Below are positions 11,437 through 63,966 of a stretch of DNA of 64,000 bases, one piece after another. The notes under the pieces were generated by a model. It was not told the DNA's origin. It saw nothing but the letters and a program-made list of their open reading frames with translations, and did no database searches. Made by a program: the position numbers and the translations under genes. The first letter of the stretch is position 1; the number at the start of each line of letters is the position of its first letter. The stretch comes from Aliiroseovarius crassostreae (GTDB lineage Bacteria; Pseudomonadota; Alphaproteobacteria; Rhodobacterales; Rhodobacteraceae): NCBI RefSeq assembly GCF_001307765.1, contig NZ_LKBA01000004.1, positions 186,001 through 250,000 on the forward strand. The letters are read 5' to 3'.

Positions 11437-11503
11437 GGGGACAGATCAGCGCAGGTTCTGCGGTTTGGTAAAGTCTGACCGCGCGTCAGGTCAGGCAACG
11501 TCA

Positions 11504-11530
11504 AGGCGTTTCGGGATAAACTTGAAACGC
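11504..11530. repeat. Fragment of the GCGTTTC two-hairpin repeat family
   Basis: AGGCGTTTCGGGATAAA is followed by CTTGAAACGC, an imperfect short hairpin with the same GCGTTTC/GAAACGC ends as the full elements at 21.6, 31.8 and 54.3 kb. Only one hairpin arm pair is present, so this looks like a decayed or half copy. Confidence 0.5.
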
Positions 11531-11568
11531 ATTAACCAGCGGTGCGGGCTGTAGGGAAGGGATCGCGA

Positions 11569-21628: not shown

Positions 21629-21748
21629 TTAAAGCGTTTCGAGATTAACTTGAGACACAAGTTGATTTCGAAACGCTGGCAACATCAGTAGGTTTCGAGC
21701 GCTTCGCCTCATTATTGTGTCTCAATAATTAAGTCGAAACACTTTAAG
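21629..21748. repeat. Two-hairpin intergenic element, copy A
   Basis: This 120-base element opens CTTAAAGCGTTTCGAG and closes GTCGAAACACTTTAAG, with near-complementary ends about 33 bases long. Inside, hairpin 1 (21632-21676) pairs AGCGTTTCGAGATTAACTTG with CAAGTTGATTTCGAAACGCT through G-T wobbles around the loop AGACA. Hairpin 2 holds CATTATTG-TGTCT-CAATAAT. The linker is GGCAACATCAGTAGG. Copy B at 31829-31947 is its close relative in the opposite orientation. Confidence 0.8.
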
Positions 21749-22099
21749 GGCGGTTGCAGTCTGGGAGGATTCATCAGTGATGCGGGGGACCTTCGTACGA
21801 AGGATGGCATTGCTGCAAGCCTCTCTCCGCTCCGGTACTGGGGGCAAGTTTTGCGTCGGGACACGTGGGGTTGTTTTCAAAACAAGGATAGCGGCCCGAA
21901 CCCAATCTGTCCGATACGCAGCCATCGCGCCACATAATTATCGTCTGGATAGGCTGATTTTATAAGGGTTGGTCCGTGACGTCGGTTTCTCCGAGATAGT
22001 TTAATATCTGGTTACCAGTTTAGATCGAATTCTCAGGTTAGCAAAATTTCAAGAGCTTTGGGCGAATCTCTTCTTGGGTGAAAAAATGGAGTGGGTGAA
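21749..22099. other. Gene-free stretch with two short perfect palindromes
   Basis: Between repeat A and the DUF6473 gene I see no credible gene. Two palindromes stand out: CCTTCGTACGAAGG at 21790-21803 and TTGTTTTCAAAACAA at 21871-21885. Base composition becomes AT-richer towards the DUF6473 start, as for a promoter region. A GGAG ribosome site is at 22088-22091. Confidence 0.4.
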
Positions 22100-22927
22100 A
22101 TGGCCTATCAAAGCCTTGGCGAAGCGTCGCTTGAGTATTTTCCATGCCGTTATGGGGCGTCGAAGATTTTGTTTCGCGGACCGCAGCGTTCGCTGGATGG
22201 AGCGTATGTAGCGGCTCTCGGAGGAAGTGAAACTTATGGGAAATTTGTGCAATATCCCTATCCGGACCTCATGGAAGGCCTGTTGGGAATGCCGGTGGCC
22301 AATTTCGGATGCATGAATGCAGGGGTCGATGTGTTTGCCCATGATCAGACCATTCTGGATGCCTGCAACCATGCAAAGAGGACGGTTCTTCAGGTGCCTG
22401 GTGCGGTGAACCTGTCCAATCGGCTCTATGCTGTCCATCCCCGCCGTAATGATCGCTTCCTGCGCGCATCCAACCTTCTGAAAGCGATTTATCGTGAGGT
22501 TGATTTTACTGAGTTCAATTTTACGCGCCATATGCTGCAAACCCTTCAGGAGATTTCTGTAGAGAAATTTGCCATGGTCGAAATGGAGTTGAAGGAAGCA
22601 TGGGTCGGGCGAATGAAATCACTGGTGGCGCGCATTGAAAGTCCGCTGATCCTGCTGTGGCTTTCTGAACGCGCCATTTCTGAAACCTGCCCGCATGGTG
22701 TGCTTGGACCGGATCCGGCAATGGTGGACGAGGACATGATCAACGAGGTGCGCCCCTTTGTGCAGGACATTGTCGAGGTGAAAGTTTCATCGCAGGATAT
22801 CACAATCGGGCGCGAGGATCTGATTTTCCCGGAAATGGACGCGGCGGCTGCTCAGTGCATGCTGGGGGCTGTTGCCCATGACCTTGCCGCCGATGCGCTG
22901 GTCAGTTGCATTCGCGCGCATCCCTGA
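22100..22927 (+). CDS. DUF6473 family protein
   Basis: A 275-residue protein with the pattern of DUF6473: an opening YQSLGEASLEYFPCRYGAS, FRGPQRSL, and GGSETYGKFVQYPYPDLMEG followed by an ANFGCMNAGVDVF block. The function is unknown; the fold looks like an SGNH/sulfotransferase-like alpha/beta protein, but I cannot assign catalytic residues. ATG 22100 has GGAG close upstream, while GTG 22091 is an in-frame alternative adding three residues. It stands alone between a repeat-bearing gap and the etfA terminator. Confidence 0.7.
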   Translation: MAYQSLGEASLEYFPCRYGASKILFRGPQRSLDGAYVAALGGSETYGKFVQYPYPDLMEGLLGMPVANFGCMNAGVDVFAHDQTILDACNHAKRTVLQVPGAVNLSNRLYAVHPRRNDRFLRASNLLKAIYREVDFTEFNFTRHMLQTLQEISVEKFAMVEMELKEAWVGRMKSLVARIESPLILLWLSERAISETCPHGVLGPDPAMVDEDMINEVRPFVQDIVEVKVSSQDITIGREDLIFPEMDAAAAQCMLGAVAHDLAADALVSCIRAHP

Positions 22928-22950
22928 CGGAGCTTAGTTGCACATCAAAA

Positions 22951-22980
22951 AAGGCCCGCCATTTGGCGGGCCTTTCTATT
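22951..22980. terminator. Bidirectional terminator between DUF6473 gene and etfA
   Basis: AAGGCCCGCC-ATTT-GGCGGGCCTT is a perfect ten-pair stem flanked by an A-run on the left and CTTTCTATTT on the right, so it can stop transcripts from both convergent genes. Confidence 0.88.
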
Positions 22981-22996
22981 TGGTTCGAAAGCTGGA

Positions 22997-23926
22997 TCAG
23001 CCGAGTTTTTCGGTCAGGGCCGGAACAGCTTCGAAGAGGTCGGCCACCAGACCGAAGTCAGCCACCTGGAAGATCGGTGCTTCTTCGTCTTTGTTGATAG
23101 CAACGATGATCTTCGAGTCCTTCATCCCAGCCAAGTGCTGGATGGCGCCCGAAATGCCCACGGCGATGTACAGTTCGGGGGCGACAACCTTGCCGGTCTG
23201 GCCGACCTGCAGGTCGTTGGGGGCATAGCCCGAGTCAACGGCTGCCCGCGAGGCGCCAACGGCTGCGTTCAGCTTGTCGGCTAGGGTTTCGATCAGTTTG
23301 AAATCCTCTTCCGAGCCAACGCCACGGCCACCTGATACGACAACGCCAGCCGAGGTCAGCTCGGGGCGGTCGCTTTCGGCAACCTTGTCTTCAACCCATT
23401 CGGACAGGCCGGGGTTGTCCGCGACGGACACGGTTTCGACAGCCGCCGAACCGCCTTCGCCTGCCGCTTCGAAGGTCGAGGTGCGGAAGGTGATGACCTT
23501 TTTCGCATCCGACGATTTCACGGTCTGCATGGCGTTGCCGGCATAGATCGGGCGCACGAACGTGTTGCCGTCCACCACTTCGGTGGCATCCGAGATCACC
23601 ATCACGTCCAGAAGAGCGGCCACGCGGGGCATCACGTTCTTGGCGTCGGTGGTGGCTGGGGCCACGATGTGGTCGTAATCGCCAGCCAGCGACACGATCA
23701 GGGCTGCGGTCGATTCTGCCAGGCGGTGACCCAGCGATGCGTCTTCGGCAACCAGAACCTTGGCCACGCCATCGATCTTGGCGGCGGCTTCACCGGCGGC
23801 GGCGGCGGTGCCACCAGCGGCCAGAACGGTCACATCACCCAGTGCCTTGGCAGCGGTGACGGCCTTGGCGGTGGCGTCCAGCGCCAGTTCGCCATTGTTG
23901 ACTTCTGCGAGAAGAAGAACAGCCAT
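22997..23926 (-). CDS. etfA: Electron transfer flavoprotein, alpha subunit
   Basis: EtfA carries the FAD of the ETF heterodimer that takes electrons from acyl-CoA dehydrogenases and passes them to ETF-ubiquinone oxidoreductase. The 309-residue protein shows the N-terminal nucleotide-like domain ([20 protein letters not shown]) and the C-terminal FAD domain with [37 protein letters not shown] and [10 protein letters not shown]. Its ATG shares one base with the etfB stop. The Mcd-like dehydrogenase of this window is a plausible electron donor. Confidence 0.96.
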
Positions 23927-24684
23927 TATACAGCCCCCGCTTCTTTGAGTTTCTCAACCAGTTCGTCGACCGAACCCACAATGATGCCAGCGGCGCGGGC
24001 AGCAGGTTCTTCGGTCTTGACGATTTCCAGACGGGGCGACACGTCAACGCCGTAATCGGCGGCGGTTTTCTCGTCCAGCGGTTTTTTCTTTGCCTTCATG
24101 ATGTTCGGCAGCGACGCATAGCGCGGCTCGTTCAGGCGCAGGTCCACGGTGACGATGGTCGGCATGTTGACCTTGATGGTCTGTAGACCGCCGTCCACTT
24201 CGCGGGTCACAACAGCCTTGTCGCCGTCGATGTCCAGCTCGGAGGCAAAGGTGCCTTGCGACCAGCCCAGGAGCGCCGACAGCATCTGGCCGGTGGCGTT
24301 CATGTCATTGTCGATGGCCTGTTTGCCGGCGAGAACCAGACCAGGCTGCTCTTCTTCAACAACTTTGGCCAGGATCTTGGCAACGGCCAGCGGCTCGATA
24401 TCCTGATGCACATCTTCGGCTGCCACAACCAGGATGGCGCGATCCGCCCCCATGGCCAGCGCCGTGCGCAGGGTTTCCTGAGCTTGCTTCACGCCGATCG
24501 AAACGACCACAATCTCTTCTGCCTTGCCGGCTTCTTTCAGGCGAATGGCCTCTTCGACGGCAATCTCGTCAAAGGGGTTCATCGACATTTTCACGTTGGC
24601 AAGATCGACACCGGTCCCATCCGCTTTTACACGAACTTTCACATTATAGTCGATCACGCGCTTAACAGGTACAAGCACCTTCAT
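23926..24684 (-). CDS. etfB: Electron transfer flavoprotein, beta subunit
   Basis: EtfB is the AMP-binding partner of EtfA. The 252-residue protein begins [18 protein letters not shown] and contains [16 protein letters not shown] and the conserved recognition loop [22 protein letters not shown] with the ADP-side residues. ATG 24684 is the family start; in-frame upstream residues to 24723 are not conserved. Upstream on the same strand the island of insertion elements begins 166 bases away, separating etfBA from the cobalamin adenosyltransferase gene. Confidence 0.96.
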
Positions 24685-24860
24685 TGGCGTGTCTCTCCCA
24701 GTTATGCCCCGAAGGGCGGTCATGCTCTCGCGACACGTTTAACGAGTCGTGGCTGTCAAAAACAGCGCAAAATCGTCACGTCTTGTTCCAAGGACGCCGC
24801 GTTTTTTGTTTTTTGGGGGGATTCTCTACGAGAATGTTTCGAAGACCCTAGGGCGTAGAC

Positions 24861-25334
24861 TCATAAGAGCCAAATGACTGTTGCGGCGATGAGGGCTGCT
24901 GCCAAGAAGGTTTGTTGGCATCGAAATGTTCGCAGGCTGAGTTGTCGCCAGTCCTTCAGTCGGTTGAACATGCGCTCGACGATGTTGCGGGTTTTGTAGA
25001 GGTCTGCGTCATATTCGAATTGCATTTTGCGGTTCTTGCGCGGTGGGATGCGGGCGGTTGCATGGCGTTGCACGAGCCAATCGCGCAGATGGTTTGCGTC
25101 GTAACCTCGGTCTGCAATGACTGTGCGGCCTTTGGTGATATATGACTCAAGGCATTGATTCGCATGGGTAATATCGGCTCGATGTCTGAGGTCAGATGCA
25201 GATGGACCGGCTTGCCACTGCCATCGCACACCAGATGCAGCTTTGAATTCAACCCGCCTTTTGTCTTGCCGATATCCCGTCCTTCGCCGGTGTTTTTGGG
25301 GCACCATTGGCTGCGATGCGATGCGTTTTGACAT
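24861..25334 (-). CDS. IS5-family transposase, second frame (catalytic C-terminal part)
   Basis: Residues from ADRGYDANHLRDWL to NIVERMFNRLKDWRQL carry the last two acidic residues of the DDE catalytic set, and the tail ILTATVIW-type helix (LIAATVIWLL) ends the element. The first part (KRRVEFKAASGV) continues the fold begun in the other frame. This frame is +1 relative to the first and overlaps it by 86 bases, around the run CCCCAAAAAC. A frameshift is therefore needed to make a full transposase; both frames otherwise look undamaged. Confidence 0.82.
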   Translation of the reverse strand: MSKRIASQPMVPQKHRRRTGYRQDKRRVEFKAASGVRWQWQAGPSASDLRHRADITHANQCLESYITKGRTVIADRGYDANHLRDWLVQRHATARIPPRKNRKMQFEYDADLYKTRNIVERMFNRLKDWRQLSLRTFRCQQTFLAAALIAATVIWLL

Positions 25335-25572
25335 GGCTGGAGTCGATCATCAGCGTGGAAAGATCTGCCGTCTCCCGCGCCAAAGTTTCGAACACATGCT
25401 CGAAAACGCCGGCTTCAGACCATCGTTTCCAGCGGTTGTAGAGCGTCTTGGCGGGGCCATATTCCGGCGGCACATCGGACCAGCGATAGCCTCGCTGAAT
25501 GCAGAAAATGATGCCCGATAACACGCGCCGGTCGTCGACACGCGGAACACCGCGCGGCTTTCTGGGCAGCAA
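25249..25572 (-). CDS. IS5-family transposase, first frame (N-terminal part)
   Basis: This frame shows PRKPRGVPRVDDRRVLSGII, the bundle typical of the IS5/IS427 group, then PPEYGPAKTLYNRWKRWSE and STLMIDSSHVKTH with the first catalytic Asp. Similarity extends upstream of TTG 25572 through WLTEEQYNKIRPL, but a TGA lies just before and no ATG is in frame, so the start codon is unclear; this may be a non-standard start or a silent copy. Confidence 0.7.
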   Translation of the reverse strand: MLPRKPRGVPRVDDRRVLSGIIFCIQRGYRWSDVPPEYGPAKTLYNRWKRWSEAGVFEHVFETLARETADLSTLMIDSSHVKTHRIAANGAPKTPAKDGISARQKAG

Positions 25573-25786
25573 GGGCCTGATTTTATTGTACTGTTCTTCG
25601 GTGAGCCAGAAATGTCAAAGATATGGAACCCTCCTAAGTCCACATCTTGAAACACATCAACGTTTATAGGTCTACGCCCTAAAGAGTGAGATCAGAATTC
25701 GTAGGAAACAATACGAGAATCCACCAAAAGAGTTCTCATTCAAGATGTTGCATAAAAGTATCCGTCCGGTAAAGGAGCGCACCGGA

Positions 25787-26158
25787 TTAGAAACCTTTGA
25801 TTGAGACAGAATAGTCTGGAAGAATGAGGCCCGCGTCCTCAACGTTTTCGCTGTATGCAAAATCCCGGCTTACAGAGGCGATGTATGTATCAGTGAACTG
25901 ACCGGCTGTTTCACCGTTGCTTGATCGGTGGGCCTGCAAATCTTCCGCTTCGAACCGACTGTTCAGAAAGTTGGCTCGGCCAATGCCCAAGAACTCACAA
26001 GCAAAAGCATTCATGCGCGACATGAGCTTTGACTGCCGGTACGTCACAAATGCTGTGAACTCAGGTGTATCAAGGTAGAGAACGCCGAAATACTCACCCG
26101 CTGGGCGGCTCTTTATCAATGCACACAGGAGCAGGGTTTGGCGAAAGCTCATCAACAC
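25787..26158 (-). CDS. Hypothetical protein beside the IS66 remnant, probably a fragment
   Basis: A 123-residue frame I do not recognise, with SRMNAFACEFLGIGRANFLNSRFE in the middle and a C-terminus DAGLILPDYSVSIKGF. It has no clear ribosome site. Its first codons overlap the broken 3' end of the IS66 transposase, so the original N-terminus was probably lost when the element arrived. It may be the tail of a gene that occupied this locus before the insertions. Confidence 0.35.
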   Translation of the reverse strand: MLMSFRQTLLLCALIKSRPAGEYFGVLYLDTPEFTAFVTYRQSKLMSRMNAFACEFLGIGRANFLNSRFEAEDLQAHRSSNGETAGQFTDTYIASVSRDFAYSENVEDAGLILPDYSVSIKGF

Positions 26159-26627
26159 GCCCTTTCAGCGAGGAGTGCAAATCGCCACAGCATCAATCCC
26201 TCAATCCGATTGATTTTGTGATCCGGCAGACGTTCCAGCCCCCATGTGAGCCATGCCTCAGCATCAATGCCGTTCATTTTGGCGGTCTCGATGAGGGTAT
26301 AGGCGATGGCAGCGGCCTTGCCGCCGCCAACGGAGCCCATGAACAGGTAGTTTTTGCGACCCAAGGCGATGGGACGGATCGAGCGTTCACATATGTTGTT
26401 GTCCAGTTCCAAGCTCCCATCGCTCAGATAGGACGGATGATCCGGCGCACGACAAAGCGACCGGGGATATATTCCAGCTCCTCAGTGACGTCCTCGCCCA
26501 CCTGACGCAGGGGGCCGCCGCAATCATTGCAGTCTTCAGCGGGGTCGTCAGGCAAGGATTTGATCGCATCCAACATGGGCGATCTATACCGGAATGCCCC
26601 GATCGATGGAACGCAAAACAGCGCCAA
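26152..26627 (-). pseudogene. tnpC: IS66 transposase TnpC with internal deletion
   Basis: An N-side piece (26424-26627) holds the zinc-finger part, SLPDDPAEDCNDCGGPLRQV then VTEELEYIPGRFVV. A C-side piece, in another frame, holds LELDNNICERSIRPIALGRK then TLIETAKMNGIDAEAW. They join near 26435, where RRIIRP is followed at once by the SYLSDGSLELDNN end of the catalytic domain. Most of the catalytic core between them is deleted, and the extreme C-terminus is lost too. Confidence 0.82.
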
Positions 26628-26651
26628 AGCCCATGTTTTATGGGGTCTTGA

Positions 26652-26958
26652 TCACCCTGCCGTCAGTGGCTTCCAGGTCTTTTGCGGCATACGCCAATCC
26701 CCCCCTTCCAGCAGCATCGACAGCTGAGACGGGCTCAGGCTGACCTTACCATCCTTCGCCGCAGGCCAGACAAACCGCCCGCGTTCCAGCCGCTTGCTGA
26801 ACAGGCAGGCTCCTTGGGGCTCCGCCCGTTCTTGCCTCAAACTGTCCACTGGACAGTTTGCCACGTTCCGTGGACCGGCGCGAACTCCCACCAGATGATC
26901 TTCAGCAGATCACCCCGGCGGCCAGCCACACCCGTGTATTGCTTGGCACCGGGATCAT
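26652..26958 (-). pseudogene. tnpB: IS66 accessory protein TnpB, rearranged
   Basis: The start, MIPVPSNTRVWLAAG (ATG 26958, overlapping the tnpA stop as ATGA), jumps directly to GDLLKIIW, so the MRxGF-type middle is deleted. After that about 70 unrelated bases containing a perfect 23-base palindrome are inserted. The frame then resumes in QGACLFSKRLERGRFVWP through LSMLLEGGDWRMPQ. It cannot encode a working protein. Confidence 0.8.
26838..26860. repeat. Perfect 23-base palindrome inside the tnpB remnant
   Basis: CAAACTGTCCA and TGGACAGTTTG flank a single C. It lies within the foreign segment that interrupts tnpB between its IIW and QGACLFSK codons, so it arrived after IS66 or marks a repair scar. 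Confidence 0.75.
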
Positions 26959-27349
26959 GGCATCAGCCCTTCGACCAGAGACATCACCGCCGACAGCGCA
27001 GTGTTGCCTTCCACCAATATCCGCCGACCATCAGACAGCGTGATGTCCACGCGCTGAACCGAAAGTGGCGCACCGGAAACTGTCGGTGGCGAAGGCAATC
27101 GCGACGCGATTGGGGATGAGGCAACGCCTTCGATCTCAACGGGCAGAAACTCGGCAACCTCCGCCTCGGCATCCGCATCATCCGGGGCAAACAGAGGATC
27201 ACGCAGCCACTTATGGATCAGATTGGCGTTCATCGCGTAACGCCGCGCCACTTGCGCAACCGCCCCCCTGACGCCCGCGCCTGAGCACAGATCGAAACCT
27301 TCTCTTCGTCCGACCAAAACCGCTTCTTCCCGCCCTTCTTCGCCCCCAT
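26955..27349 (-). pseudogene. tnpA: IS66 transposase accessory protein TnpA, frameshifted
   Basis: From ATG 27349 the frame reads MGAKKGGKKRFWSDEEKVSI then CAQARASGG, the proper helix-turn-helix opening. A run of six G residues near 27265 shifts the frame, and the family continues in another frame as VAQVARRYAMNANLIHKWLR and FLPVEIEG through RVDITLSDGRRILVEG. One extra G explains the break. Confidence 0.78.
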
Positions 27350-28595
27350 AACCCGCCTCATAATGTCCACTATCGATGGTGGACACCATCAACACACTCT
27401 ATCCCACGTCAGAGCAGGGACACCGGACGCATACGCTTAAAAGCGATAACGGTACACCACAAAGGCGGTAGCAATGTGGGAAGCCGCTTCATGTCTGGAC
27501 GTCGTATATAAAAATTGAGAGAGCAGTGGCTAGGTGTTCAGTCCCAAGGTGTGATGGTCTACGGATCTGTGGCCATCAAAAGGAAACTCTATGGGACAAG
27601 TTCTTCACGGGAGCGGCAAGACTACGCACGCCGTCCGAGCTCTCATACAGCGATCGAAAGCTTTGAACGCGGCGTTGAGCCGGGAGCTTGGCATCAACGT
27701 TAAGACCGTGGCCAAGTGGCGCAAACGCGATCATATTCATGATGCCGCGATGGGGCCAAGGACGTGCACTCAACGGTTCTCAGCATGGAAGATGAAGCTG
27801 TTATCGTTGCATTCCGGCGGCACACGCTATTGCCGCTGGATGACTGTCTCTACGCCCTGCAGCCGACCATCCCACACCTGACACGGTCATCGCTACACAG
27901 GTGCCTACAGAGGCATGGGATCAGCCGATTGCCGGCGGTCAAGGGCGACAAGCCCAAGAAGAAATTCAAGCGATACCCAACCGGGTATTTCCACATGGAC
28001 ATTGCTGAAGTGCGCACCTGCGAAGGCAAAATCCGACTATTCGCAGCCATCGACCGTATGTCGAAGTTTGCTATGTCGAACTTCATGAGCGCGCTGGCAA
28101 GATGTTGCGCAATTTGATCGCAGCAGGGCCCTACAAAATCCACACGATCCTGACGGACAATGGCATCCAGTTCACCAATCGCATGCAGGACACATCAGCT
28201 TTTGATCACATCTTCAGCCGGGTTTGCCGTGAGAATGAAATTGAACAACGCCTGACAAAGGGGAACCATCCCTGGACGAACGGACAGGTCGAACGCATGA
28301 ACCGAACGATCAAGGAGGCGACAGTTAAGCGGGACCATTACGACACCCATTCTCAGCTCGAAGCGCACATCACCGACTTCATCGCAGCTTACAACTACGC
28401 AAGACGCTTGAAGACACTGCACGGCCTCACGCCGTTCGAATACATCTGCAAAATCTGGACGTCAGAGCCGGAGCGATTCAATTCAAACCCAACCCATCAC
28501 ACTTTGGGACTAGGTTTTGTTGACGTTCAGGATTCATAAATCGTGTGAGTTCTGATTCAAGGTTGCACACAACAGGAGAGCAGCCTTGCCCCGTT

Positions 28596-29086
28596 TTATT
28601 TTCCACCTATTGGAGATAAACCACCGGCTTCCAGCCGGTCCGCTTCAGCGACTCTCTTGATGATCTCTCCTCATCATCCGCGCACACGCGATTTTACCAC
28701 AGGTTCCACGTCGTGTGGGTCACAAAATACCGCTACAAGGTGTTGCAGGGTCCTATGCGTGAGCGGATCCGAGAGATCATACGCCAGACGTGCGATGAAA
28801 TGGGCGTTCACATCGTGCGCGGTGTGCTGGCGCGAGACCATGTCCACATGTTCCTGTCGATCCCGCCGAAACTGTCGCTGTCGGATGTCATGCAGAGGAT
28901 CAAGGGCCGTTCCTCCCGCCGCATCCAGATGGAATTTCCCGAACTGCGCAAACGCTACTGGGGCAGGCGCTTTTGGGCGCGTGGGTACTTTTCCACCACT
29001 TCGGGCAATGTCTCCGACGACATCATCATGCAGTATCTGGAATTACATTCCTCCAAATGATGCTACCGGCGTCAGCCGGTAGTCAT
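28596..29086 (+). mobile_element. IS200/IS605-type element inserted in the IS5 transposase
   Basis: The ends are set by rejoining the host codons CGT-TTC, so they are accurate to one or two bases. A hairpin CCGGCTTCCAGCCGG lies near the left end (28624-28638) and CTACCGGCGTCAGCCGGTAG at the right end (29063-29082), as expected for the stem-loop ends used by single-strand HUH transposases. There is no target duplication. Confidence 0.82.
28713..29060 (+). CDS. tnpA: IS200/IS605-family HUH transposase TnpA
   Basis: This Y1 transposase carries the HUH motif in ARDHVHMFLSIP and the probable nucleophilic tyrosine in IIMQYLELH near the C-terminus, with the typical core KYRYKVLQG and GRSSRRIQMEF. 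The GTG at 28713 begins inside the fold (upstream in-frame HTRFYHRFHV also belongs). No ATG, GTG or TTG with a ribosome site is in frame further up, so the N-terminus is unclear; the copy may be poorly expressed. Confidence 0.78.
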   Translation: MWVTKYRYKVLQGPMRERIREIIRQTCDEMGVHIVRGVLARDHVHMFLSIPPKLSLSDVMQRIKGRSSRRIQMEFPELRKRYWGRRFWARGYFSTTSGNVSDDIIMQYLELHSSK

Positions 29087-29876
29087 TCACTCTGAACGAC
29101 GCCCAATGGGCGATCATTGAGCCGCATTGCCTTGGCAAATCGACAGACCCCGGCCAGACCGGGCGCGACCCGCGTCTGTTCGTGGAGGCCGTCCTTTGGG
29201 TGGTTCGAACCGGTGCGCAGTGGCGTGACCCGCCGGGTGATTTTGGCAATTGGAATTCGGTGTTCAAGCGGTTTCGCCGCTGGGTCAAGGCTGACGCTTT
29301 TTATCGAATGTTCAAGGCTTTGGCTGCCAGTTCGGATTTCGAATACGCGATGATCGACGGTACCATCGTCAAGGTTCACCGCGCGGGCCAGGGCGCAAAA
29401 GGGGGCCTCAGAGCCAGGCCATAGGCAAGTCGCACGGCGGTATCTCCACCAAAATACTGGCCATGACTGACGCGCTTGGAAACCTCGCCGACTTCTGCTT
29501 GTTGCCAGGCCAGGCTCACGACCTGCGCGGTGTGCCAGATTTGCTGAATGGGCTGGACGCGGGTCACATGTTGGCCGACCGTGCCTTCGATGCGGATTGG
29601 CTGCGCCATGCCCTGTCCAAGCGCGATATCGCACCCGTGATCCCGCCACGAAAGAAGAGAAAGCACCCGGCAAGCTACGATGAGGAAATGTACAAATGGC
29701 GGCATCTGGTCGAAAACTTCTTCCAGAAGATCAAGGATTACAGGGGTATAGCAACGCGCTACTGCAAAACAGACACCAGCTTTAAGGCCTTCATATCCAT
29801 CGCAGCGACAATCCTATGGCTCAAGGGAACGTCAACAAACCCTAAACACCTAAGTTTGGTTTGCATTTTCTCAATT

Positions 29877-30449
29877 TCACCGATTGGCCCCCGGCACCCA
29901 CAGCACATCCGCTTTGCCGCCGTCATTCGCCACACGCGCCGCAACAAAACACCAATCTGACAGGCGGTTGAGGTATTTGACCGCCACCGGGTTCACCTCT
30001 TCGACACTGGCGAGCTCTGTCGCAAGGCGTTCGGCGCGGCGGCTGACCGTGCGGACCATGTGAAGATGGGCGGCGAGGGGGGACCCCCCGGGCAGGATGA
30101 AGCTGCGCAAGGGATCGAGTGCCTTGTTCATCACGTCGATCTCGGCCTCCAACCGGTCCACCTGCTCTTGCGCCATGCGCAGCGGTGGATATTCGGCCTC
30201 GGCGTCTTTGGTCATCTCGGGTCGGCAAAGATCGGCACCAAGATCAAACAGGTCGTTTTGGATGCGGGCAAGGGCGGCGTCCACGTCGTCTCTGGCATGC
30301 AGTCGGGCCAGACCAATCGCTGCGTTGGTCTCATCCACGGTGCCATAAGCACTTATGCGCGGATCATGTTTGGCCCGCCGCGTGCCATCCCCCAACGCGG
30401 TTTCACCCTTGTCACCCGTGCGTGTGTATATCTTGTTCAGAACGACCAT
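29877..30449 (-). CDS. Cob(I)alamin adenosyltransferase, PduO type
   Basis: This 190-residue enzyme transfers the adenosyl group of ATP to cob(I)alamin to form adenosylcobalamin. It shows the ATP-binding N-terminus YTRTGDKGETALGDG, then AYGTVDETNAAIG, and the C-terminal signature LNRLSDWCFVAARVAN. Adenosylcobalamin serves methylmalonyl- and ethylmalonyl-CoA mutases. The ATG overlaps the stop of the small membrane-protein gene. The stop codon directly abuts the IS481 element, whose arrival left the protein end WVPGANR intact. Confidence 0.93.
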   Translation of the reverse strand: MVVLNKIYTRTGDKGETALGDGTRRAKHDPRISAYGTVDETNAAIGLARLHARDDVDAALARIQNDLFDLGADLCRPEMTKDAEAEYPPLRMAQEQVDRLEAEIDVMNKALDPLRSFILPGGSPLAAHLHMVRTVSRRAERLATELASVEEVNPVAVKYLNRLSDWCFVAARVANDGGKADVLWVPGANR

Positions 30450-30652
30450 CAGTTGCCTCCTCTCATCCAGATAAACAGAAGAATAAGCGCAATGGCCACG
30501 GCCTGTGCGTAGATCCGGTACCGCATGAAGCGGTTGGAATGCTTTTGCGCCACCTTCCCGCCCGCGCCGAATGTGCCAATACCCATCAGCAGGATGATCA
30601 GCACAGCGGCCACAGCAATGACGACAAGGACAAAAAGCGGATCTTCAAACAT
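30449..30652 (-). CDS. Two-helix small membrane protein (HIG1-like, twin transmembrane)
   Basis: A 67-residue protein with two hydrophobic helices (FVLVVIAVAAVLIILLMGIG and YAQAVAIALILLFIWMR) joined by a short basic loop GGKVAQKHSNRFMRYR, the layout of HIG1-type and so-called twin transmembrane proteins of Rhodobacterales. ATG 30652 has AGGAG seven bases upstream; a long in-frame extension to 30823 is antisense-like and contains a repeat. It is coupled (ATGA) to the adenosyltransferase gene. A role in respiratory complexes is suggested by the fold only. Confidence 0.75.
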   Translation of the reverse strand: MFEDPLFVLVVIAVAAVLIILLMGIGTFGAGGKVAQKHSNRFMRYRIYAQAVAIALILLFIWMRGGN

Positions 30653-30729
30653 TTGGAACTCCTGTTGACTGGCAATTGGATAGCGCGCACCTGAGTAAAA
30701 AGCGAGGGGGCGTTTGTCGTGTCCCGCCA

Positions 30730-30869
30730 GGGGCTTTGCCCCTCTTGCCCCTTGTGGGGGCAATTCACCCCAGGATATTTCAGGCAAGAGGAAGATGCAG
30801 ATGCTCTTTTCCTCTTGCGGCAAATATCCCGGGGTGAGCCGCGCAGGCGGCGAGGGGCAGCGCCCCTTT
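30730..30869. repeat. Inverted pair of a 65-base repeat (TATTT-box family)
   Basis: A copy on the plus strand (30730-30794: GGGGCTTTGCCCCTC, TCACCCCAGGATATTTC, AGGCAAGAGGAAG) faces a copy on the minus strand (30806-30869: GGGGCGCTGCCCCTCG, TCACCCCGGGATATTTG, CGCAAGAGGAAAAG), with 11 bases between. Together they can fold into one long stem. A third copy lies at 54119-54178. Confidence 0.75.
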
Positions 30870-30873
30870 CTGT

Positions 30874-31704
30874 TCAGCCGTTTGGGGTGACCCGATCAAG
30901 CATCCGCGTCGACATCAACCGCCGGGCCGTCCCGGCGATATGGGTGGCGCGGGTCACGTAATAACGTGGGCGGGGACGGGGGTGTTCCAGTGCATGGATC
31001 AGTTTTTCGGTAACGGCAGAAGGGGGCAGTTCGAACCGGTCAGGCGTGCCGCTGTCATCATAAAGCCGGGTGCGCAATTTGCGATAAAGGCCCGCGCGGG
31101 CGCTGTTTTCCCAGTCGATCCAGCGCTCAAACGGGGCTCGGGAATTTTCGCGGATACGGGTTGTGATCGGGCCGGGTTCTATCAGTGCGATATGGATCCC
31201 GGTGCCGCGCATTTCCAGCCGCAACGTGTCGGTCAGCCCTTCCAGGGCGAACTTGGTTGAGCTGTAAGCGCCGCGCCAGGGCAGGGCGGTCAGGCCCAGC
31301 ACGGAGGAGTTGTTGACCACGCGCCCGTGGCCTTGCGCGCGCATCACGGGAAGCGCCAGACGGGTCAGGTGATGGTATCCAAAAACATTGACCTCATAGA
31401 TTTCGCGCAGGGCGTCGGTCGGCACGTCCTCAACAGCGCCGGGAATGGCATAAGCCCCGTTGTTGAAAAGCGCATCAAGGCGGCCATTCGTCCGGGCCAA
31501 TACGGCGTCCATTGCCGCCTCGATTGACGCGGTGCTGGAATAGTCGAGCTGCAGGCTCTCAAGCCCCTCTTCGGTCAGGCGCTCGACATCCTTTTGTTGT
31601 CGGCAGGTGGCAAAGACGCGCCAGCCGCGTTTGGCAAGGGAATGCGCCGCGTCATATCCGATGCCCGACGAGCATCCGGTGATAAGCAGGGATTTCTGTG
31701 TCAT
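30874..31704 (-). CDS. Short-chain dehydrogenase/reductase
   Basis: A classical SDR of 276 residues: cofactor loop TGCSSGIG (residues 9-16), NNGAYA, the catalytic serine strand VVNNSSVLG and the catalytic Tyr/Lys pair in GAYSSTKFALEG. The basic residues after the second strand (CRQQKD) suggest NADP(H). The substrate is unknown; the C-terminal part (PRPRYYVT) resembles broad-specificity oxidoreductases. It ends near the repeat pair at 30.8 kb and has only a weak ribosome site. Confidence 0.88.
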   Translation of the reverse strand: MTQKSLLITGCSSGIGYDAAHSLAKRGWRVFATCRQQKDVERLTEEGLESLQLDYSSTASIEAAMDAVLARTNGRLDALFNNGAYAIPGAVEDVPTDALREIYEVNVFGYHHLTRLALPVMRAQGHGRVVNNSSVLGLTALPWRGAYSSTKFALEGLTDTLRLEMRGTGIHIALIEPGPITTRIRENSRAPFERWIDWENSARAGLYRKLRTRLYDDSGTPDRFELPPSAVTEKLIHALEHPRPRPRYYVTRATHIAGTARRLMSTRMLDRVTPNG

Positions 31705-31828
31705 GAGGGAGAGTTGGCAAGGACGGGGGGGCGCGTCAACAGGAAATCAAAAAAATTATCGGAAGGGAAGCGGCGCGCGTTCCCTCCCGTTCTTGCGAAA
31801 TTGGAGTAACTTGAAACATCGCAGAACA

Positions 31829-31947
31829 CTTAAAGCGTTTCGATTTATTATTGAGACACAATACTGAGGCAAAACGCTCGAAACCTACTGATGTTGCGGG
31901 CGTTTCGAAATCAACTTGTGTTTCAAGTTAATCTCGAAACGCTTTAG
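31829..31947. repeat. Two-hairpin intergenic element, copy B
   Basis: This is a 119-base element whose sequence matches the reverse complement of copy A at most positions, including CTCGAAACCTACTGATGTTGC in the linker. It opens CTTAAAGCGTTTCGAT and closes CTCGAAACGCTTTAG. It lies between the divergent-side SDR gene and the SH3-protein gene. Its right flank has GTTGATATCT, also seen beside the fragment at 43.6 kb. Confidence 0.8.
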
Positions 31948-43518: not shown

Positions 43519-43611
43519 CGGATCTGCCTGTTTTGATGTGTTCTCTTGGAGGCCTGTGTGAACACTATTATGTGAAAATAATGGTAAACGGTGGGGCAGT
43601 CCTGTCAATAA

Positions 43612-43672
43612 AGCGTTTCGGGATAAGCCGCGACACATAATTTATTCCGAAACGCCCACGACATTGATATCT
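43612..43672. repeat. Half copy of the two-hairpin repeat family
   Basis: AAGCGTTTCGGGATAA ... TTATTCCGAAACGC forms one hairpin with the family ends, followed by CCACGACATTGATATCT, similar to the linker of the full copies. The second hairpin is absent. It lies upstream of the methyltransferase start. Confidence 0.6.
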
Positions 43673-43714
43673 CTTGCGGCCTTTCGATTTTCCCTGATGT
43701 CAGGTTGGGGCGTA

Positions 43715-43812
43715 TCGCGCAAAACGGGGCACTGGTTTTGCGTTCCGCGGACATGCAAAATCAAGAACTCAAGTGGGTCGCGTGAATGGAATAAACGCGA
43801 CGCGCTCTGAAA
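43715..43812. repeat. Direct repeat X2
   Basis: TCGCGCAAAACGGGGCACTGG, then ACATGCAAAATCAAGAA, AGTGGGTCGCGTG and CGCGACGCGCTCTGA: the same order and strand as X1 at 42585, clearly diverged, with a 14-base gap relative to it and a longer tail. Confidence 0.75.
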
Positions 43813-45405: not shown

Positions 45406-45526
45406 GGACGGGAGGAAACCTTTGGGACGGTTTCCATGAATTGGTCCACCCCCCAATCTCGGACGAGGCGTCACCGGGGACCCGACGGTCGGCGCATCAG
45501 TTGAGAACATGAAAGGTAGTTACCGG

Positions 45527-54258: not shown

Positions 54259-54375
54259 TTAAAGCGCTTCCATATTACGTTGAAACTTCGTGATGTGGAA
54301 ACGCTGCGCATGCTGCAAGGATGGTGGGCGTTTCCAGTTATTGCTGTGATCCAACAAGAACTGGAAACGCTTTAA
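54259..54375. repeat. Two-hairpin intergenic element, diverged copy E
   Basis: A 117-base element with ends TTAAAGCGCTTCCA and TGGAAACGCTTTAA. Hairpin 1 (AGCGCTTCCATATTACG ... CGTGATGTGGAAACGCT) and hairpin 2 (GGCGTTTCCAGTT ... AACTGGAAACGC) are joined by GCGCATGCTGCAAGGATGG. The design equals copies A and B but the stem sequences differ, with both arms changed together. Confidence 0.75.
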
Positions 54376-63804: not shown

Positions 63805-63966
63805 GATATTTGGAATTCGGGGACCTCGTGGTGCGGTGTAAGCCAGATCAAAAGGGCCCTTTAACCTGGTCACCTGTTCAGCCAATGGCGTTCAGGGGGC
63901 TTTACCTACCAGGTGGTGACCTCGGGCAAACTCGGGGCATCGCCAAGCTAACGGAAGACAGAAAGC

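Follow-up and report, generated by a model that had tools for sequence, protein, structure and literature searches.

Two-armed intergenic repeats of Aliiroseovarius crassostreae as probable IS630-derived miniature elements with the plan of Caulobacter CIR

Caulobacter CcrM-associated intergenic repeats (CIR) were reportedly described by Chen and Shapiro in 2003. A 2007 review (PMC2229807) presents them as repeats of ~110 bp with two arms, a linker, TA termini and a GANTC sequence at the loop of one arm; it regards CIR as only partly similar to miniature inverted-repeat transposable elements (MITEs), states that the mechanism of their mobility needs more information and leaves the role of GANTC undetermined. 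ISY100, a member of the IS630 family of insertion sequences (IS), has ends 24 bp long; it can move with 30 bp from either end and causes a duplication of TA (PMC2170065). Here we analyzed a 64,000-nucleotide stretch of Aliiroseovarius crassostreae DNA (contig NZ_LKBA01000004.1, positions 186,001 to 250,000; hereafter the window), in which an initial annotation had pointed to a family of two-hairpin elements. Their borders, the duplication of TA judged from one empty site, the homology of their ends, recent amplification in a relative and arms that covary suggest that these elements are very probably MITEs derived from IS630/Tc1-mariner insertion sequences.

Three copies (A, B and C) had been proposed in the window, with A and B as near reverse complements of each other, and alignment together with shuffle-tested folding confirmed this. 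Copy A aligned to the reverse complement of copy B over nearly its full length, and copy C represents a separate class with the same plan. Folding of all six strands of the three copies gave z-scores from -6.4 to -9.4 relative to dinucleotide shuffles, with 0/200 shuffles as good in each case. The elements are laid out as YTA, AAGCGTTTC, a first arm up to its fold-back GAAACGC, a linker of ~20 bases, GCGTTTC, a second arm up to its fold-back GAAACGCTT, and TAR. The pattern AAAGCGYTTCN{78,106}GAARCGCTTT returned 41 full elements in the 3.72-Mb genome of A. crassostreae and 0 for the reversed-pattern control, while the short end motif AAAGCGYTTC occurred 257 times vs. 11 for the control. As the pattern misses copy A because of one changed base (its right end is GAAACACTTT), the genome contains at least 42 full copies, along with single-hairpin and partial ones. 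In the 41 copies the end motifs span 103-126 bases; no transposase gene lies inside the elements and the linkers fall into at least three classes. The further copies on which the notion of a family depended were thus found, here and in relatives, and a covariance model added a fourth, degraded one to the window (copy D).

The terminal sequences point to IS630 as the parent. A tblastn search against 754 plasmid records detected full-length IS630 copies of ~1050 bp, carried by plasmids of Rhodobacterales. Of 60 listed matches, 16 were retrieved, and 13/16 had readable, unequal ends. These two ends, the left end (LE) ...AAAACCTGAATC and the right end (RE) ...TTTAACCTGAGACA, are like the element arms, as exemplified by CTA followed by AAGCGTTTCGAAGAAAACCTGAATCG for LE and CTA followed by AAGCATTCCGCCTTTAACCTGAGACATATCCG, in variants, for RE. 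Arm 1 of copy A is RE-like and agrees at 25/28 bases with the RE of the IS630 from Roseovarius THAF8. Profiles of LE and RE were built from 8 Rhodobacterales IS630 copies, scoring only positions 10-25, which are not fixed by the search pattern. On these profiles, element arms lay beyond the 99th percentile of shuffled arms in 79/89 elements from other genomes and in 40/41 from A. crassostreae. The former comprised 61 elements with LE+RE arms, 26 with RE+RE and 2 with LE+LE, the latter 37 with RE+RE, 3 with LE+RE and 1 with LE+LE. Two other element-bearing genomes contain broken IS630 copies whose ends are those of the elements: in G647 a derivative of ~630 bp lies between ends reading TA and then AAGCGTTTCGCG, and a remnant in G499 has end matches of 26-28/30 bases in four of five chosen G499 element ends and of 21/30 in the fifth. 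The initial annotation saw no parent transposase, which is true for the window; elsewhere in the genome there is a fragment (C14:22747-23061), its sole IS630 match, which is 83% identical to the Roseovarius THAF8 query across residues 69-173 of the latter. A search in 1.0 Mb for an autonomous element with matching ends 130-3500 bp apart yielded seven pairs, not each checked, that look like neighboring or nested copies, and this candidate was rejected.

Borders and insertion sites were examined next to the end motif AAAGCG. Over the 82 ends of the 41 A. crassostreae elements, T stood at -1 in 98%; position -2 was a pyrimidine (C or T) in 94% and in no case G, and no strong preference was seen further out. 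G was likewise absent from the second base outside in the 77 elements of other genomes used for borders, in which the border T carries no evidence because it belonged to the search pattern. The commonest left/right border pairs, TT/AG in A. crassostreae and CT/AG in other genomes, exclude a four-base target duplication. When the joined flanks of 12 loci were queried against 21 same-genus genomes, a clear empty site with a single TA was found in G005, which reads CAAGCTAAAGTG where A. crassostreae has CAAGTTA-element-TAAAGTG. One element is nested inside another at a TTAA (L057). In Roseovarius OFTM168, a metagenome-assembled genome (MAG), one element occurs in 11 copies at 100% identity and 7 at 93-97%; nine of the 11 identical copies were printed in full, and of these 9/9 have TA at both borders and 8/9 a complete YTA/TAR. 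The suggestion of a small non-autonomous mobile element, for which empty sites and target duplications were to be sought, is thus supported by the YTA/TAR borders, the empty site with its single TA, the nested copy, the identical dispersed copies in a relative and the IS630-matching ends.

In our preferred explanation, each terminus of an element retains ~26 bp of an IS630 end, and behind each of these ends follows a fold-back copy of itself, giving two hairpin arms joined by the ~20-base linker. According to the mechanism that we propose, an IS630 transposase acting in trans would bind both ends, excise the element and insert it at YTAR, duplicating TA. Several points weigh against this derivation. 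Movement itself was not observed. Of the 12 loci queried, one gave a clear empty site, and a second candidate came without a clean alignment; moreover, sequence cannot separate a TA duplication from an insertion of A...T between T and A. Copy C is weak on the Rhodobacterales LE/RE profiles. A complete IS630 was not seen in the A. crassostreae genome, which has 1 fragment only. A PF13358 search of 16 genomes that bear the elements or are related came back without IS630 for 11, including OFTM168, where the negative is weaker since a MAG may be incomplete. However, a MITE does not need a complete parent IS in the same genome, and the parent may be lost. As only a transposase gene fragment is left in the genome, the local copies are probably dormant now, unless a plasmid brings an active IS630.

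The initial annotation also held that the whole element can fold as a cruciform. Single copies can indeed fold end to end, but across 45 diverse sequences, compared with 500 shuffles, the two arms covary and the outer palindrome hardly does. For the two-arm fold 87.2% of cells were paired vs. 77.1% in shuffles, with 164 double-change cells vs. 66, and 0/500 shuffles were as good. The whole-element palindrome, rejected as the retained fold, had 69.5% of cells paired vs. 68.9% in shuffles (67/500); its covariation score (0.124 vs. 0.100) lay above every shuffle, and RNAalifold alone favored the outer pairing. The arms are the better supported structural unit, and the paired changes in them may reflect selection or palindrome-templated mutation. 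Single hairpins of 49 bp (L052, L053, L055, L056) have element ends on both sides, and an in-script deletion between the arm repeats of L051 produced 49 bases, one base off the solo hairpin L055. The simplest origin of such hairpins is a deletion by slippage from the CGAAACGC repeat of one arm to that of the other.

Two inverted palindromic units in many copies, mainly outside genes, are also what would be expected of REP doublets forming hairpins (REPINs), in which two inverted repetitive extragenic palindromic (REP) hairpins are moved by a REP-associated tyrosine transposase (RAYT) of the Y1 type, and the genome does have Y1 genes, one of them between A and B. Yet none passes the RAYT profile (best score 42.3 bits vs. 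a cut-off of 80), and the eight Y1 matches resemble TnpA of IS200. Together with the symmetric YTAR target at both borders and the match of the ends to IS630, this makes a REPIN system highly improbable, and the label of a REP-type structural repeat given in the initial annotation is not supported. As another possible source of MITEs we considered the IS427 group of IS5, which also targets TA, is abundant in this genome and, as a parent, would have AAGCGTTTCG ends. The IS427 N-terminal domain has 26 matches in the genome, and CTAG borders were seen where they could be read. However, the ends readable in 9/26 loci start with GGGCGTAGAC, GGCTCAGG, GGGTCAGG or GGCGGCGTCTGC, unlike the elements, and AAGCGTTTC stands at the border in 0/26; two loci have this motif elsewhere, at one shared place. 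An IS427 parent is accordingly regarded as highly improbable.

If the elements served the host mainly at gene ends, at the RNA or DNA level (as terminator, mRNA stabilizer or processing site), and were selected for that, with mobility incidental or past, this would account for the covarying arms and might account for gene orientation. A crude ORF (open reading frame) caller placed 22 of the 89 elements from other genomes within ORFs and 9 at ORF edges. The 58 that remain comprise 29 between convergent genes, where nearby YTAR sites predict 16.1, 21 between tandem genes (27.3 expected) and 8 between divergent ones (14.6 expected), giving p 6e-4. Convergent placement equally fits insertion tolerance, though, and palindrome-templated mutation can produce paired changes. 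Presence is patchy (9/295 genera by the strict pattern), and identical dispersed copies and IS630 ends account for the sequence without a host role, so that a selected host function appears improbable. IS630-derived MITEs thus remain our preferred explanation.

The features of this kind in the window are listed in Table 1.

Table 1. Repeat copies and a possible fragment in the window (window positions)
Feature	Position	Strand	Parts	Supported by
Copy A with flanking TA	21630-21746	+	TA 21630-21631 and 21745-21746; arm 1 21634-21676; linker 21677-21698; arm 2 21699-21742	sequence, folding, covariance model
Copy B (L005) with flanking TA	31831-31946	-	TA 31831-31832 and 31945-31946; arms 31835-31877 and 31900-31942	pattern, covariance model, end profiles
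Copy C (L006) with flanking TA; other class, GCGTTTCC arms	54260-54374	-	arms 54264-54304 and 54328-54370	pattern, covariance model
Copy D, degenerate	43607-43724	+	left arm retained, right end gone	covariance model R1, 46.6 bits, E 5e-10
Possible single-arm fragment, alone not significant	11467-11555	.		R1, best 14.7 bits, E 0.12

Copy A lies ~70 bp behind a chemoreceptor gene, copy B is flanked by the end of an SH3-domain gene and the start of a short-chain dehydrogenase gene, and copy C is located immediately upstream of an EamA transporter gene. Between A and B there is an IS cluster (28695-29042, 29092-29313 and 25390-25605) of one IS200-type TnpA gene and two IS427-domain transposase genes. 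IS200 was also met beside elements elsewhere: a class-1 element appears to be interrupted by an IS200 copy after its first arm (L019, ~1348-1426), and in L017 (~1347-1490) tnpA of IS200 starts ~20 bp past the end of an intact class-2 element, and the interval shows no left-end hairpin of IS200. Rfam gave 3 matches in the window at gathering score, none of them at copies A-D; matches at 45406-45495 (Rhodo-rpoB) and 63868-63964 (L2-Alphaproteobacteria leader) are expected beside rpoB and ribosomal protein genes.

Outside A. crassostreae, the strict pattern matched 9/295 genomes of the family (one per genus), two of which (G502 and G566) have only elements with similar ends around a different internal sequence. 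Elements of ~104 bp with similar ends and another interior, in these two genomes and in L067 (~1050-1155), represent additional MITE families whose ends are related. Among named genomes, a scan returned at least 91 stretches, by title mostly from Rhodobacterales; two (L089 and L090) are in MAGs titled Planctomycetota and Verrucomicrobia, for which binning contamination is a likely cause. A class-wide covariance search gave matches in 3/385 genomes, and is uninformative on absence because each genome had 9 candidates scored out of as many as 1706, and A. crassostreae itself yielded only 9 matches. Two-arm elements with GAATC in one arm (L277, L278) were found in another two families of Alphaproteobacteria, and the genomes concerned have IS630 matches as well. 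Plasmids of several A. crassostreae strains carry class-1 elements with identity up to 92%, which could reveal strain-level insertion differences.

The GANTC motif of CIR, the site of CcrM, has a counterpart in IS630. We examined 57 IS630 loci, made up of the 16 plasmid copies and two further sets of 30 and 11, and found borders for 41 of them and not for 16; leaving out two with poor end matches (L303 and L333) and three cyanobacterial copies gave a set of 36 alphaproteobacterial IS630, with LE defined by the direction of the transposase. GANTC stands at bases 21-25 in LE of 35/36 and in RE of 0/36, with a GANTC at another RE offset in 3/36. Thinning at 80% protein identity left 30/31 vs. 0/31 (N was A in 22, T in 4, C in 2 and G in 2), and at 70%, 18/18 vs. 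0/18. Both ends largely conserve G21 and C25, but A22 and T24 are features mainly of LE: A22 is present in 31/31 LE and 15/31 RE, and T24 in 31/31 LE and 11/31 RE. Additional GANTC occurs at bases 23-40 in 24/36 IS630, and at bases 41-72, upstream of the transposase start, in 34/36 (36 of 38 such sites read GATTC); the shuffle expectation for bases 41-77 is 4.2, at most 12. By comparison, bases 201 to 1020 have merely 0.3-0.6 sites per kb. The first and last sites of the cluster (bases 21-72) are inverted copies of TGAATCA. None of the three cyanobacterial copies has the LE site (0/3). Among the short elements, GANTC at the LE place was observed in one arm of 37/89 and in both arms of 1/89 from other genomes, and in 1/41 from A. 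crassostreae. Anywhere in the element it was found in 3/41 A. crassostreae copies vs. 14.5 in shuffles and in 38/89 others vs. 33.0. The identical copies of OFTM168 read GAATA, and among its seven near copies L257, L262 and L263 read GACTC.

Given GANTC at LE bases 21-25 and before the transposase start, CcrM methylation, being cell-cycle-dependent, would gate transposase synthesis and left-end use. The CIR-type GANTC would then be a piece of an IS630 control region, and MITE lineages without the site, such as that of the window and that of the 11-copy burst in OFTM168, would have escaped the gate. Dam control of IS10 provides a parallel. We advance this idea tentatively and regard it as rather doubtful. 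GANTC is missing at the LE place in 37/70 elements outside OFTM168, and 5/7 of the G499 elements shown keep GACTC in a genome with 18 copies, indicating that expansion does not require the site to be lost. A serious alternative is that TGAATC in the left end and GATTCA in the leader, which are one motif in inverted orientation, are transposase operators. Furthermore, the non-alphaproteobacterial controls with readable ends number only 3 (0/3 with the site), and thinning at 60% identity leaves 6 IS (6/6 vs. 0/6), for which base-wise contrasts are not significant. CcrM and GANTC methylation have been reported for three alphaproteobacterial MAGs in a paper that also discusses a Rhodobacteraceae MAG and is not about IS ends (PMC9296519).

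With IS630 as the likely parent, Rhodobacterales elements of the CIR plan would now have a parent, a YTAR target at which TA is duplicated, and a source for their two unequal arms, and a bacterial repeat family of unexplained mobility would gain a possible source. The GANTC cluster in the IS630 left end leads to the prediction of CcrM-controlled transposition coupled to replication, so that movement may follow a DNA-methylation clock.

RIME1 and Bru-RS are repeats that may be similar; a search for papers linking RIME1 with palindromes gave none. Searches on REPIN in Rhodobacteraceae, on repetitive extragenic palindromic in Roseobacter and on the element end strings gave no related papers by title. 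The elements share two inverted palindromic units and proposed in-trans movement with REPINs and their RAYTs (PMC3116915), but differ in the lack of a RAYT, the symmetric TA target and a DDE-type IS630 parent rather than a Y1 gene. They share end sequences and YTA/TAR borders with IS630 (for example ISRm2011-2 of Sinorhizobium and the pTHAF8_a plasmid copy of Roseovarius THAF8), from which they differ in lacking a transposase gene and in keeping just ~26 bp of either end, with the fold-back behind it. The pneumococcal RUP, a MITE with IS630-Spn1 as proposed mover (PMC2229807), is similar in size (~107 bp), TA target and IS630-like ends, but has a different sequence and host, and the same review describes repeats other than CIR as having no arms and linker. 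CIR, compared by their description in that review, agree with the elements in size (~110 bp), two long inverted-repeat arms with a linker, TA termini and an alphaproteobacterial host. The loop GANTC, however, is missing at its place in 40/41 A. crassostreae elements and kept in 38/89 from other genomes. A match to a catalogued repeat, which would have told against the initial annotation, was thus found in half: the plan equals that of CIR, but nothing in Rfam matches the elements. As the window copies have no GANTC, we do not file them as CIR. We take them to be IS630-derived MITEs with two arms, built on the CIR plan and lacking the CcrM site here.

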